In this document: one piece after another, positions 41,649 through 48,416 of the stretch
Layout: every line of letters begins with the position of its first letter
Numbering within the stretch: the first letter of the stretch is position 1
NCBI GenBank assembly: GCA_903900025.1
Contig: CAIULN010000042.1
Location: 1 to 64,000, forward strand
DNA from: an uncultured Methanomicrobiales archaeon
GTDB lineage: Archaea > Halobacteriota > Methanomicrobia > Methanomicrobiales > Methanospirillaceae
DNA: 64,000 bases
Direction: 5' to 3'
Made by a program: the position numbers and the translations under genes
The notes under the pieces: generated by a model
The model's input: the letters and a program-made list of their open reading frames with translations, nothing else
What the model was told of the DNA's origin: nothing
Database searches by the model: none

Positions 41649-41736
41649 CAGATTTTATGACGCTCTTGGGGGTGTTTGCTGTTCCGACAGGAAGAGCAAA
41701 CTAGAGAAGATGTCCGTCAGGACATCTTCAAGATGA
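41641..41736 (+). CDS. Tiny ORF (31 residues) ending in a palindromic element
   Basis: ATG 41641 opens a frame reading MLNRFYDALGGVCCSDRKSK then LEKMSVRTSSR. Its last part, LEK..., is encoded by the hairpin 41706-41729 in the same codon phase as hairpins in the tiny ORFs at 46.5-47.0 kb. The stop TGA overlaps the next ATG as ATGA. No SD is visible. Translation is uncertain; the shared palindrome phase is the main support. Confidence 0.4.
   Translation: MLNRFYDALGGVCCSDRKSKLEKMSVRTSSR
41706..41729. repeat. GAAGA palindrome with 10-bp stem
   Basis: GAAGATGTCC-GTCA-GGACATCTTC, preceded by GA so that GAGAAGA starts the element. Perfect stem of 10 bp with a 4-base loop. Same style as the palindromes at 46.5-47.7 kb. 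Confidence 0.8.
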
Positions 41737-41886
41737 TCACCGTCGCGTGGGCACCCCCCATACTATGATCGTCATCCAATACGGTTGATGAGAAGAATGA
41801 ACAGAACGGGATTTTCCAAAGAGCCACCTCTTTATCTCACCGCTGGCATTTTAGCGAAGGTTCACGCAATAATCACCGGAGCATGA
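41733..41886 (+). CDS. Chain of three further tiny ORFs leading into ygiQ
   Basis: Three frames follow one another with stop/start overlaps: 41733-41768 (MITVAWAPPIL), 41765-41788 (MIVIQYG), 41788-41886 (MRRMNRTGFSKEPPLYLTAG plus ILAKVHAIITGA). The junctions are ATGA, ATGA, TGATG and finally ATGA with the ygiQ start at 41883. They may be leader peptides for translational coupling, or chance. No SD is clear. Confidence 0.3.
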
Positions 41887-45675: not shown

Positions 45676-46419
45676 TCAGATCTCGATTGTCAGGTCGTCC
45701 GTTGCCACGATGAGCCCGGGGAAGATCTTTTCAAATTCATCCTGCACCGCCCTGCGCTCGTCCAGCGTGCGGTAGACCTCTGCACCGAAGTGCACCAGCG
45801 CGAGGCGCTGTGCGTTCGCTTTTTGTGCGATCCCGATCGCGTCCTGCGGGTTCAGGTGCGGCCAGTCGGTGCTTACCCCGCCGGGCTTCAGTGCGCATTC
45901 CGTGATGAGCAGGTCGGCATCCCGGGCAAGGGCGACGGCGTTCTCGCAGGCACCGGTGTCCGTGCAGTAGGTGATCACCTTCCCGTCAACCTCCAGCCGG
46001 TACCCGTAACAGGGGGCAGGATGGACAAGCGGGCGGCATTCCACGGTGAACGGGACCCGGTGCACACCCTCTGCAAGCTCGGTGACGCGGGCCGGGTACG
46101 GGAGGTCTGCAAGCGGCACGGTGAACGGTTCTGCGGCAAAGGTGTTGAGGAGCTCAGTCCCGCCCGGGAGGCAGAAGATTGTCAGGCCCTGCAGGAACCG
46201 GAACTTGACAAGCGTATGCAGGCCGGCGATATGGTCGATGTGGAAATGGGAAAGGAAGAGGAGGGCCGGCTTCTCCTGCGTGATGTACCGGTCCGCTTTT
46301 GCGATCCCGTTACCGGCATCGAGGATGATGTCAAACGCTTCCGACTGGACAAGGACAGAGATGGTGTTGCCCGTTACGGTATCATACCAGCCATTGGTAC
46401 CAAGGAAGGTCACCTTCAT
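45676..46419 (-). CDS. MBL-fold metallo-hydrolase
   Basis: A 247-residue metallo-beta-lactamase fold protein with the metal site SHFHIDHIAGLHT (H-x-H-x-D-H) and downstream TYCTDTGACENAV, LITECALKPGG, LALVHFGAEVY with the remaining His/Asp ligands. The RNase Z/phnP-like group includes tRNA nucleases and phosphodiesterases; length under 300 with no exosite points away from RNase Z proper. Substrate unknown. Confidence 0.9.
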   Translation of the reverse strand: MKVTFLGTNGWYDTVTGNTISVLVQSEAFDIILDAGNGIAKADRYITQEKPALLFLSHFHIDHIAGLHTLVKFRFLQGLTIFCLPGGTELLNTFAAEPFTVPLADLPYPARVTELAEGVHRVPFTVECRPLVHPAPCYGYRLEVDGKVITYCTDTGACENAVALARDADLLITECALKPGGVSTDWPHLNPQDAIGIAQKANAQRLALVHFGAEVYRTLDERRAVQDEFEKIFPGLIVATDDLTIEI

Positions 46420-46513
46420 GGTAACAGGGTTGTTGCTGCAGTAATAAAGGATTGAGCTAAAAGACGGTCAAAAGATGTTCTTTGAATTTATCTGCGGAGT
46501 GTCACAGGGTTAT

Positions 46514-46536
46514 GGCAGGAGGATCATCCTCCTGCC
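46514..46536. repeat. Perfect hairpin after the tiny-ORF operon
   Basis: GGCAGGAGG-ATCAT-CCTCCTGCC, 9-bp stem (11 with the inner AT pairs) and a short loop. It starts two bases beyond the stop codon of the last tiny ORF (minus strand) and may end its transcript, though no T-run follows. Confidence 0.7.
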
Positions 46537-46538
46537 TG

Positions 46539-46637
46539 CTATACTTTTTTGTACTGGTCTCCACTTCGAAGCCTTAGGGCTTCTCGTGTTTCGGGTCGCT
46601 GACCCTCAACAAGTCGAAGAACTTCGTTCTTCTCCAT
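46539..46637 (-). CDS. Tiny ORF F (32 residues)
   Basis: The frame reads MEKNEVLRLVEGQRPETREA then LRLRSGDQYKKV. It starts two bases after the stop of tiny ORF E. It holds three palindromes: GAAGAAC-GAA-GTTCTTC right at its start, GGGTC-AGC-GACCC, and GAAGCC-CTAA-GGCTTC. No SD separate from the ORF E end is seen; coupling is likely. Confidence 0.4.
   Translation of the reverse strand: MEKNEVLRLVEGQRPETREALRLRSGDQYKKV
46568..46583. repeat. Hairpin GAAGCC-TTAG-GGCTTC
   Basis: Perfect 6-bp stem with 4-base loop; on the minus strand preceded by GA and followed by GA, matching the GAGAAG...CTTCG consensus but in another codon phase. Confidence 0.65.
46593..46605. repeat. Hairpin GGGTC-GCT-GACCC
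   Basis: Perfect 5-bp stem with 3-base loop inside tiny ORF F. Confidence 0.5.
46616..46632. repeat. GAAGA palindrome, minus strand GAAGAAC-GAA-GTTCTTC
   Basis: Perfect 7-bp stem with GAA loop. On the minus strand it is preceded by ATGGA, so the palindrome encodes M-E-K-N-E-V-L-R at the start of tiny ORF F. Confidence 0.75.
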
Positions 46638-46638
46638 C

Positions 46639-46779
46639 TCAGGGCTTACCCCCTTTCGATGATTCCATATGATCGAGGACCCGGTCCCACATAACGAGGA
46701 GCCCGGGGATGATCACGTAGGCGAGCAGCCCTGCTGATACGAAGATCGCAGTGATGAGAATTTCATTCTCCATGGTCAT
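46639..46779 (-). CDS. Tiny ORF E: 46-residue single-pass membrane protein
   Basis: The frame reads MTMENEILITAIFVSAGLLA and YVIIPGLLVMWDRVLDHMES ending SKGGKP. Residues 6-30 form one membrane helix. Its ATG overlaps the stop of tiny ORF D (ATGA). Its start (ENEILITAIF) resembles that of ORF D (DNEIIIMAAF), suggesting duplication. The best protein-like member of the cluster. Family not recognised. Confidence 0.6.
   Translation of the reverse strand: MTMENEILITAIFVSAGLLAYVIIPGLLVMWDRVLDHMESSKGGKP
46756..46770. repeat. Palindrome GAGAAT-TTC-ATTCTC
   Basis: Perfect 6-bp stem with 3-base loop, located at codons 4-8 of tiny ORF E (minus strand, encoding E-N-E-I-L). Confidence 0.6.
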
Positions 46780-46880
46780 TCCCTCCGGGTCTGACCAGCT
46801 GCGATCTTCTCCACCTCGCATCTGGAGATGCTCGGTCCCAGGAACGCCGCCATGATGATGATCTCGTTGTCCACCATCAT
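46776..46880 (-). CDS. Tiny ORF D (34 residues)
   Basis: The frame reads MMVDNEIIIMAAFLGPSISR then CEVEKIAAGQTRRE. It is preceded by GAGGTGAG at proper SD spacing, which overlaps the stop of ORF C, and its own stop overlaps the ORF E start (ATGA). The N-terminal half is hydrophobic and resembles that of ORF E. Confidence 0.5.
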   Translation of the reverse strand: MMVDNEIIIMAAFLGPSISRCEVEKIAAGQTRRE

Positions 46881-46887
46881 TCTCACC

Positions 46888-46974
46888 TCAGCGAAGAACT
46901 TCGTTTTTCTCGAGTTTCGTTGCGTTGAAGACTATCGTCTTCTCCACACTCATTACTCCGTAACTCGTGTCCAT
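46888..46974 (-). CDS. Tiny ORF C (28 residues) carrying two palindromes
   Basis: The frame reads MDTSYGVMSVEKTIVFNATK then LEKNEVLR. SD GAGGTGAG overlaps the ORF B stop. Two palindromes lie inside: GAAGAC-GATA-GTCTTC (V-E-K-T-I-V-F) and the imperfect GAAAAAC-GAA-GTTCTTC (L-E-K-N-E-V-L-R) ending at the stop codon. Confidence 0.45.
   Translation of the reverse strand: MDTSYGVMSVEKTIVFNATKLEKNEVLR
46893..46909. repeat. GAAGA palindrome with one mismatch
   Basis: GAAGAAC-TTC-GTTTTTC on the plus strand; one A-C mismatch in a 7-bp stem. On the minus strand it is followed by GCTGAGGTGAG: stop codon and SD of the next ORF. Confidence 0.65.
46927..46942. repeat. Palindrome GAAGAC-TATC-GTCTTC
   Basis: Perfect 6-bp stem with 4-base loop, in tiny ORF C. 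Confidence 0.65.
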
Positions 46975-46984
46975 GCAACTCACC

Positions 46985-47017
46985 TCAGCGAAGATTTCCA
47001 ATCTTCTCGAATCTCAT
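46985..47017 (-). CDS. Tiny ORF B (10 residues)
   Basis: MRFEKIGNLR: nearly the whole frame is one palindrome (46990-47006). A GTG nine bases earlier could also start it. It ends in GCTGAGGTGAG, the stop and the SD of ORF C. It may act as a coupling leader rather than as a functional peptide. Confidence 0.3.
   Translation of the reverse strand: MRFEKIGNLR
46990..47006. repeat. GAAGA palindrome GAAGATT-TCC-AATCTTC
   Basis: Perfect 7-bp stem with 3-base loop; on the minus strand GAGAAGATT-GGA-AATCTTC then GCTGA, close to the consensus of the family. Confidence 0.75.
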
Positions 47018-47032
47018 GCTCCGCACATCGAT

Positions 47033-47536
47033 TCAGGACAATGCTGCCACAGTGTCAGCCCAGGTCTCGACCCGGCTGCGGATCGCTTCATCGGAGTACG
47101 AGCTGAGCCGCACCCGGTCTCGGATGAAGTCCACGAAGTAGATCTCCCCGTTGGCATTGTGGCACCTGACCGTTGTCGAGAACTTCTCATTCTCCACGTC
47201 GCGGACCGGCGTGCCTCCGAGTGCGGTGGCGATCTCCGTATCGGCAACGATGCGGTTTGCTGCGGCCGTGAAGGCCGCGATGTTGCCAGCCCGGATCGTG
47301 ATGAGCCCGACATCTTTTGCACCGGTATCCTGATAGATGACCCGTGCGGTGTAACTCTGCCGGCTGCGTTTAACCGGAGGGTGGTTCACTCCCTGTGCGT
47401 TGTAGGTAACGCACTGGAAGGGGTTGTTCGTGATGACGCCCTGGACGATGTTGTCAAAGGCAGTCACATCTGCGAGCGGGACCGCAATATTGCGGATCGC
47501 ACTCTTGGTTGTTGTGCTTGACGTAAAGTCTGCCAT
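47033..47536 (-). CDS. Hypothetical protein, first gene of the tiny-ORF cluster
   Basis: The 167-residue protein begins MADFTSSTTTKSAIRNIAVP and is mixed alpha/beta without signal peptide or membrane helix; recognisable blocks are VIYQDTGAKDVGLITIRAGN and TTVRCHNANGEIYFVDFIRD. I do not recognise the family. It has the strongest ribosome site in the region (AAGGAGGT, eight bases before ATG). Tiny ORFs B to F follow on the same strand within 500 bases, so it probably heads a small operon. Confidence 0.75.
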   Translation of the reverse strand: MADFTSSTTTKSAIRNIAVPLADVTAFDNIVQGVITNNPFQCVTYNAQGVNHPPVKRSRQSYTARVIYQDTGAKDVGLITIRAGNIAAFTAAANRIVADTEIATALGGTPVRDVENEKFSTTVRCHNANGEIYFVDFIRDRVRLSSYSDEAIRSRVETWADTVAALS

Positions 47537-47568
47537 GTTTTTTTACCTCCTTTTTTTTATTTCTGAGT

Positions 47569-47584
47569 GGGTTCATCAGAACCC
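47569..47584. repeat. Hairpin GGGTTC-ATCA-GAACCC
   Basis: Perfect 6-bp stem; shares the TTC-ATCA-GAA core with the hairpin ten bases further on. Confidence 0.65.
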
Positions 47585-47593
47585 CGAAGACGA

Positions 47594-47615
47594 GAAGAAT
47601 TCATCAGAATTCTTC
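47594..47615. repeat. GAAGA palindrome GAAGAATTC-ATCA-GAATTCTTC
   Basis: Perfect 9-bp stem with 4-base loop. Plus strand context GAGAAGA ... TCTTCGCTG matches the consensus, here in opposite orientation to those inside the tiny ORFs and upstream of the operon. Confidence 0.8.
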
Positions 47616-47696
47616 GCTGTCTGGCGAGGTTCATGAGAGGGTCGAATGTCGGCTTTTGCCCCCCTTCTCCTCATCAAGGTTTTACAAACCTCTCTG

Positions 47697-47712
47697 ATCT
47701 CACAGATGAGAT
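47697..47712. repeat. Hairpin ATCTCA-CAGA-TGAGAT
   Basis: Perfect 6-bp stem, directly followed by the next hairpin. Confidence 0.55.
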
Positions 47713-47729
47713 GGGTGGCACCGCCACCC
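47713..47729. repeat. Hairpin GGGTGGC-ACC-GCCACCC
   Basis: Perfect 7-bp stem with 3-base loop, abutting the previous hairpin without a spacer base. Confidence 0.65.
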
Positions 47730-47979
47730 TTCGAGTGTGTCTCGGGGCGCCCTTTGACATACAGATAAGGGTTGAATGGGATATTACGGGCGATCTGGGG
47801 GTAGCAAGCGGGGGCTTTTACACAGCGTTTTTCAGGAGTCGGGCAAATCGGCGCGGATTGTGATTGATCGGAGCCTGAAATAAAAAGAAATTGAGGTTAT
47901 TTTTTTAAGGATTTGGGGAAATCGAGATCTTTTCTCAGTCCGTCAGACCCACCATTTTCCCGGTTGCACAATCTTCGGG

Positions 47980-48345
47980 TCCGAAAAATTTCCGGACAAA
48001 ATAATTTTGCATCCAAAAAAATCGAACCTTAAAATTTTGAAACTTAAAAAAATCCGGCACAAAAAATTTTCAGCGCGAAAATGTTCCGGCCTGATCATGA
48101 AAAAAAGTGACCCATAATCGGTAAGCCTCAGACGTGGACTCGTTTGCTGACACAGAATTTTTTGCCGGTAAAAATTGTGTCGGTCAAAAAATTTCGGGCT
48201 TTGAAATTTTCACACGCAAGAATTTCCGAACAAAAAAAATTTTACGTCCGAAAAAAACCGGGTTTTAAAAATTATGAGCGCGAAAATTTTCCGGCACAAA
48301 AATTTTCAGTGCGAAAAAAAGTCCAGCAAATTCTCCAAAAAATTG
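47980..48345. repeat. Quasi-periodic A-tract/T-tract array
   Basis: This stretch of the 880-base gap 47537-48416 holds about 20 short tracts of the type AAAA(A)TTTT separated by GC-containing spacers. Centres lie roughly 13-18 bases apart (mean near 16), with a gap at about 48085-48155. Two units are near-identical: CCGGCACAAAAAATTTTCAG at 48053 and its counterpart CCGGCACAAAAATTTTCAGT at 48291, both followed by GCGAAAA. No open frame with homology is seen. Confidence 0.6.
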
Positions 48346-48416
48346 CCCTGCAAAACAGGAAGATCCTAAAAAGATTTGCCGGAAGAGTTCCGCCCTGCCT
48401 TTCAGACCCCCGTCTT

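Follow-up and report, generated by a model that had tools for sequence, protein, structure and literature searches.

The locus at positions 46514-47729 raises the question why so many short palindromes lie in and around a few tiny ORFs. The window, i.e., the whole stretch of 64,000 nucleotides that was analysed, belongs to contig C42 of a 1.75-Mb assembly in 103 contigs, with Methanoregula and Methanomicrobiales genomes as relatives. The answer favoured here is that the palindromes of the window are probably copies or remnants of a non-autonomous repeat of approximately 55-58 nt, built of two hairpins, that was inserted at new sites in two genera of one Methanomicrobiales family.

Hairpins and small ORFs at 46514-47729

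An earlier, sequence-only reading had counted about a dozen hairpins within 1.2 kb, many of them in a GAGAAGA...TCTTC frame that is often followed by GCTGA. Both observations stand. The region holds 13 non-overlapping perfect hairpins with a stem of at least 6 and a loop of 3-8, compared to a mean of 1.85 and a maximum of 6 in 100 dinucleotide shuffles; for stems of at least 7 the number is five, compared to 0.46. In a scan of the 64 kb, hairpin density was highest in 1.2-kb segments around 46400-47600. The pattern GAAGA-N(3-14)-TCTTC occurs six times in the window, where 0.94 is expected, and the hairpins at 46985-47008 and 46888-46911 are each followed by GCTGA. A tRNA scan of the window found none.

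The 13 hairpins are mixed and do not all belong to one family: there are an operon-end hairpin, two coding hairpins and a set sharing GAGAAG...CTTCG. The region itself is occupied by a conserved gene of 167 aa (coding sequence at 47033-47536, minus strand), with its 5′ leader and the small ORFs downstream of it; the gene has six matches in its own genome and 26 related loci in Methanoregula-type genomes. The hairpins at 47262-47278 and 47395-47414 lie within ordinary coding sequence, and the one at 46756-46770 is the start of a small conserved ORF (46639-46773, minus strand, MENEILITAIFVSAGLLAYVIIPGLLVMWDRVLDHM...). Neither the 167-aa gene nor the small ORF has a match above cut-off in Pfam or NCBIfam. 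In most relatives, the 167-aa gene is followed by a short spacer, an ORF of 42-50 aa (MDNELIITGAFLGAGLLAYVVIPGLLVIWDRVLDHM...) and a G+C-rich hairpin with a T run. The operon-end hairpin of the window (46514-46536) is terminator-like, is located 3′ of the small ORF in relatives too, and is not a family member. Together with the T runs that follow hairpins of this kind in relatives, it would fit a view in which the palindromes are intrinsic terminators or ordinary stem-loops with a chance resemblance. The two-hairpin element, however, has no T run and has a conserved layout of 55 nt, is located upstream of and inside genes, is missing from most of the order, and is inserted in frame in a ferredoxin-like gene, which contradicts this view; it is given next to no probability.

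In the leader, the plus-strand segment 47567-47621, antisense to the gene, is a near-consensus copy of the element (77.9 bits with the covariance model R1, E = 1.5e-18 in the genome). Its first hairpin, GGGTTC-ATCA-GAACCC (47569-47584, plus strand), was found by the hairpin scan, and its second, GAAGAATTC-ATCA-GAATTCTTC (47594-47615, plus strand), by both the pattern and the hairpin scans. A degenerate element, AGGTTTGTAAAACCT ... GAGAAGG, lies on the opposite strand at 47639-47693 (minus). Its R1 E-value is 0.084 here and 3.8e-7 at the C75 paralogue, and its cognate copy is L034:3879-3935. Two further leader hairpins, ATCTCACAGATGAGAT and GGGTGGCACCGCCACCC, were found by the hairpin scan at 47697-47729. 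At the other end of the region, a short-stem element, GGGTCAGCGACCC-GAAACAC-GAGAAGCCCTAAGGCTTC-GA (46566-46606, minus strand), was recognised from its sequence, and its block is also present at C73 and C75. Outside the region, 47895-48370 is A+T-rich intergenic DNA with recurring AAAATTTTCCGG-like words, and comparable stretches lie beside the gene at L051 and L055.

The hairpins of the tiny ORFs had been reported to sit in one codon phase. On the minus strand, the GAGAA frame indeed has a common phase (GAG AAx) at 47008, 46944, 46911, 46770 and 46634, in the ORFs MRFEKIGNLR, MDTSYGVMSVEKTIVFNATKLEKNEVLR, the small conserved ORF and MEKNEVLRLVEG...; the 32-aa ORF that contains the site at 46634 has a further hairpin, at 46585, in a different phase. 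The micro-ORF MRFEKIGNLR (46985-47017, minus strand) contains the hairpin GAAGATT-GGA-AATCTTC. In the C102 paralogue the stem at this position differs yet is paired (GGAGAAC-GAA-GTTCTTC). A 28-aa micro-ORF (46888-46974, minus strand) contains two hairpins (46927-46942 and 46888-46911), each with GAG AAx in phase 0. It is followed by the N-terminal part of the small conserved ORF as a truncated remnant (46776-46880, minus strand, MMVDNEIIIMAAFLGPSISR...), which is broken off where the paralogues C73 and C75 are uninterrupted. The 32-aa ORF (46539-46637) starts with the hairpin GAAGAAC-GAA-GTTCTTC (46616-46632, minus strand), which reads GAAGAAC-AAC-GTTCTTC in the C73 paralogue.

The shared phase is not supported as a mark of independent invasions. 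The 167-aa gene and its small ORFs form a block with several paralogous copies in the same genome: MRFEKIGNLR / MDTSYGV...EKNEVLR is common to the window and C102, a related block is found in C7, C51 and C71, and the micro-ORFs or related ones occur in all four. Because this small-gene block is repeated in the genome, the common phase is largely inherited with the duplicated block and does not stem from separate insertions. It has also to be considered whether micro-ORF peptides such as EKNEVLR are themselves selected, the hairpin being a by-product. The common phase and the recurrence of EKNxVLR peptides in paralogues would agree with such retention, but the same micro-ORF position encodes EKIGNLR, EENEVLR or KKKIFAES with the hairpin still present, and elements are found in several frames, so that selection on the peptides is very improbable. 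The tiny ORFs would rather be linkers from hairpins to the next start codon. Many tiny ORFs of these genomes may be repeat debris, which calls for caution in annotation.

The 167-aa gene (47033-47536) and the ORF for a hydrophobic peptide of approximately 45 aa (46639-46773) are found together, as a multi-copy unit, in Methanoregula-type genomes, a pairing which we take to be reminiscent of Firmicutes small-protein gene sets. A family of membrane proteins of approximately 150 aa (L144, L050, L058), with up to seven copies per genome, adjoins the 167-aa gene in some relatives.

Structure and distribution of the two-hairpin repeat

The repeat unit consists of two adjacent hairpins with the consensus TCCGA-[GRGGTTC-ATCA-GAACCYC]-GAGGAYGA-[GAAGAANNC-RTCA-GNNTTCTTC]-GA. 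Its 5′ end is TCCG or TCTG, with TCCG-A being the commonest form (24 of the 66 non-tandem copies). Units also occur head to tail, in tandem arrays with a period of 55-58 nt. Two paralogous ORFs of approximately 200 aa (L028:1716-1884 and L080:1501-1612) contain three and two tandem units, respectively, in frame and with a period of 57; this is a possible coding region.

The covariance model R1 was built on six aligned longer copies from the same genome as the window, of which 47567-47621 is one, and it favours palindromic copies because it was built on such copies. In an alignment of 112 copies, both partners vary in 14 of the 16 pairs, and pairing is kept in 96.4% of the cells. The covariation score is 0.41, compared to 0.124 after shuffling and 0.02-0.08 with the partner slid. 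Owing to the structure-based fit of this alignment, pairing was tested again without the model, by a search with GAGAAG-N6-18-CTTCGA, in which nothing but the outer stem pairs and their flanking bases is specified. This pattern has 138 matches in G027 (reversed control 6) and 61 in G011 (control 2), compared to 18 in G035 and 9 in G004. The three inner positions beside the anchor are all paired in 77% of the longer cases listed for G011, compared to 11% when arms are swapped between copies, and in 69% of the first longer cases listed for G027, compared to 26%; none of the longer cases in G004 has full inner pairing. The model-free search agrees with the alignment: both hairpins keep their pairing while the stem sequences drift. 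What had been noticed in the region alone, i.e., stems that differ while pairing is kept, is confirmed by these compensatory changes.

Across the genome of the window, GAAGA-N(3-14)-TCTTC occurs 70 times, compared to 15 times for the reversed pattern, and R1 finds 35 matches at E ≤ 1, 21 at E ≤ 0.01 and 13 at E ≤ 2e-6. The suspected family of palindromes proves to be a genome-wide, lineage-restricted repeat. Neither of the outcomes that the earlier reading had named as a refutation, a motif missing from the rest of the genome or covariation at the level of random sequence, was obtained. In a survey of 61 genomes of the family, seven of the eight genomes of the same genus are positive, including the one studied here. 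Copy numbers amount to 91 in G027, 46 in G048 and 36-37 in G011 and G023, whereas G035, G004 and G054 have none despite sharing their genus with G027 and G048. No copies were found by R1 in G038 and nearly all other genera of these 61 genomes; relatives in two genera range from 0 to 91 copies, and other genera have almost none. Among 199 genomes of the order, where each count is to be read as at least that number, multiple copies are confined to the genera g1 and g5, with weak single matches elsewhere and, as an exception, four weak matches in one g4 genome. The viral contigs searched gave one match, weak and imperfect.

Copies are found on both strands and in several reading frames, and most seem extragenic or at gene edges. 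Thirty ORFs overlapping elements were scanned; where a Pfam domain is present, the element is near the N-terminus, beside the domain. The spread is partly vertical, with some copies clearly inherited, because an element at a tRNA-Cys site is common to G011 and G045. Dispersal, structure, covariation and patchy distribution of the repeat are established by these data.

At L156:701-754, L109:575-629 and L027:1510-1563, an element lies immediately or a short distance downstream of a tRNA gene; the neighbours are tRNA-Cys in G011 and G045, and tRNA-Ala in the genome of the window. The window additionally contains a separate composite repeat at 41655-41790 (GACGCTCTTGGGGG...GTTTGC-hairpin-GCAAAC, GAAGATGTCC-GTCA-GGACATCTTC, ...GCGTGGGCACCCCCC), with similar composites at L035, L038, L039 and L046, and the outer part in relatives at L052, L062 and L066. 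The two-hairpin element is sometimes nested inside a composite repeat (L160, L165, L167).

Empty sites and possible mechanisms

A search for empty sites was successful at three places. Firstly, in the ferredoxin-like gene on contig C53 of the genome of the window (G000), ATG TTC is followed by a full element of 57 nt in frame (NFGGVHQNPDKKKNPSGFF) and then by GAC TCC TAC. The gene is present in 39 of the 61 genomes, in nearly all of which the alignment begins at query residue 17-21. G011 and G051 have the element at the same site with an open frame, and in G051 it is preceded by another unit, which is degenerate; the other orthologues whose sequence was inspected have ATG-TTY-RAY-TC or a near variant without the element, their ATG overlapping the stop of the preceding gene. 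In G000, no in-frame ATG, GTG or TTG separates the element from the conserved part, so any use of the gene requires translation of the element. A comparison of G000 with G011 shows joint changes at two paired positions of this copy (A-T, G-C; AAT/AGT and TTC/CTC), each of which alters an amino acid. A TTCRAYTC-like sequence is present at both element ends, at this single site. Secondly, one element in G027 breaks a membrane-protein gene of approximately 150 aa that is uninterrupted in G084 (74% identical); this copy is out of frame, and the same gene has a frame error near its start. Thirdly, 49 nt related to the short-stem element of the window are inserted in a small ORF at C71 and are absent in C7, C42 and C96, and the small ORF of C75 is truncated at the insertion point of C71. 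These empty sites, two between genomes and one between paralogues, support insertion.

In several relatives, the 167-aa gene has a leader of approximately 70 nt; in the genome of the window, four copies of this leader have the element, at two different positions. Since no flanking-gene synteny was found for these leaders, they can be called homologous, with orthology not proven. A function of the family as RNA has also to be considered, with hairpins in untranslated regions selected for mRNA processing, stability or translational coupling, and micro-ORFs and hairpins before the SD-like GAGGTGA controlling the next ORF. The strong stem covariation, the recurrence in this leader in several genomes and paralogues, and the close packing of hairpin, stop, GAGGTGA and ATG in the window are consistent with this. 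However, copies are located on either strand and also far from the 167-aa gene, are patchy among close relatives and are inserted within genes; the leaders in other genomes lack the element, and an Rfam scan of the window gave no match. An RNA role is conceivable for individual copies in untranslated regions; the family as a whole is not explained by it, and such an origin is unlikely.

The preferred explanation, a two-hairpin repeat copied into new sites, accounts for dispersal, patchiness, nesting in larger repeats and empty sites, and we infer that an active copying process is responsible for insertion. Copies would mostly enter intergenic or untranslated DNA, in some cases as head-to-tail units, and from time to time a gene, with or without keeping its frame. 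At the locus in the window, elements and half-elements may have accumulated in the leader of a small multi-copy operon and in its linkers. Pairing could be kept because the folded single strand is recognised or maintained, e.g., as substrate of a putative nuclease; alternatively, the palindromes may be corrected against themselves, in a hairpin-templated way, at replication. It is conceivable, if somewhat doubtful, that this is a self-perfecting archaeal palindromic mobile repeat without tyrosine transposase, in which correction or fold selection matches the arms despite amino-acid changes in the host gene. In that case, arm matching would persist through amino-acid-changing substitutions, as in the ferredoxin copy. 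With this element, the matching of palindrome arms to each other can be studied in a natural example.

Several candidates for a mobiliser and a target were discarded. The Y1/RAYT transposase domain PF01797 is present in none of the 61 family genomes (control positive in 5 of 14), and a RAYT/IS200 transposase was rejected as mobiliser. A reverse transcriptase was rejected, being absent or uncorrelated: PF00078 is lacking in the main carriers G000, G011, G027 and G048. TTCG lies just upstream of 13 of 66 copies, compared to a control mean of 5.4 and to 14 in the adjacent control window; as the excess is only weak, TTCGA was dropped as upstream target motif. A clean target duplication was not found over the set of 66 copies.

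Comparison with known palindromic repeats

Palindromes that invade protein genes are known mainly from Rickettsia and from some bacteria with REPs. RPEs are dispersed palindromic repeats that are found between genes and in frame within protein genes, with several frames open, and for which no dedicated transposase is known (PMC10969869; PMC3733652). The archaeal element is also dispersed and palindromic, intergenic as well as in frame in a gene, and has empty orthologues (one ferredoxin-like gene, filled in three genomes). It differs from RPEs in its unit of 55-58 nt, compared to about 100-150 bp (approximately 150 bp in R. conorii), in its two separate hairpins, in its archaeal instead of rickettsial host, and in having one clear in-frame case here, compared to nearly half of the R. 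conorii elements. The likeness to RPEs that had been suggested holds for behaviour, i.e., empty sites and one in-frame gene insertion, and not for length and host.

CGTC- and GTAG-tagged REPs, including RPE-4, RPE-6 and dRS3, are short palindromes with heterogeneous stems in which pairing is kept, occurring as dimers or clusters and in some cases within genes; those of the CGTC type are without transposase, and the reported phyla are bacterial (PMC3733652). The archaeal element is likewise short, stem-variable, paired, clustered and partly intragenic. However, it has no GTAG or CGTC tag, its outer stem is GAAGA instead of the reported AT start, and there is no RAYT in the 61 family genomes. 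In a test for the CGTC tag, C, T, A and G were all seen at the linker position needed for CGTC in the complement, the 5′ end being TCCG or TCTG. With the RAYT-mobilised REPINs and BIMEs, the element shares two-hairpin units and clusters in tandem and mixed orientation, but its hairpins are mutually unlike and in fixed order with a GA-rich linker, and a Y1 transposase is lacking. Prokaryotic MITEs are similarly small, non-autonomous, nested in other repeats and occasionally fused to coding sequence, although the archaeal element appears to have no long terminal inverted repeat tied to an identified parent transposon.

No description of the element, and no relevant paper on palindromic repeats in Methanoregula or Methanomicrobiales, was found among the open-licence papers searched. 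Empty sites, close relatives that have or lack the element, and a complete high-copy genome make transposase-free movement of palindromes testable in this archaeal, multi-copy system. By analogy, the element can be regarded as RPE-like in action and as REP-like; it is not classed as a member of either family, because tag, transposase, length and host differ. The element is a new, archaeal variant of the short palindromic repeats.
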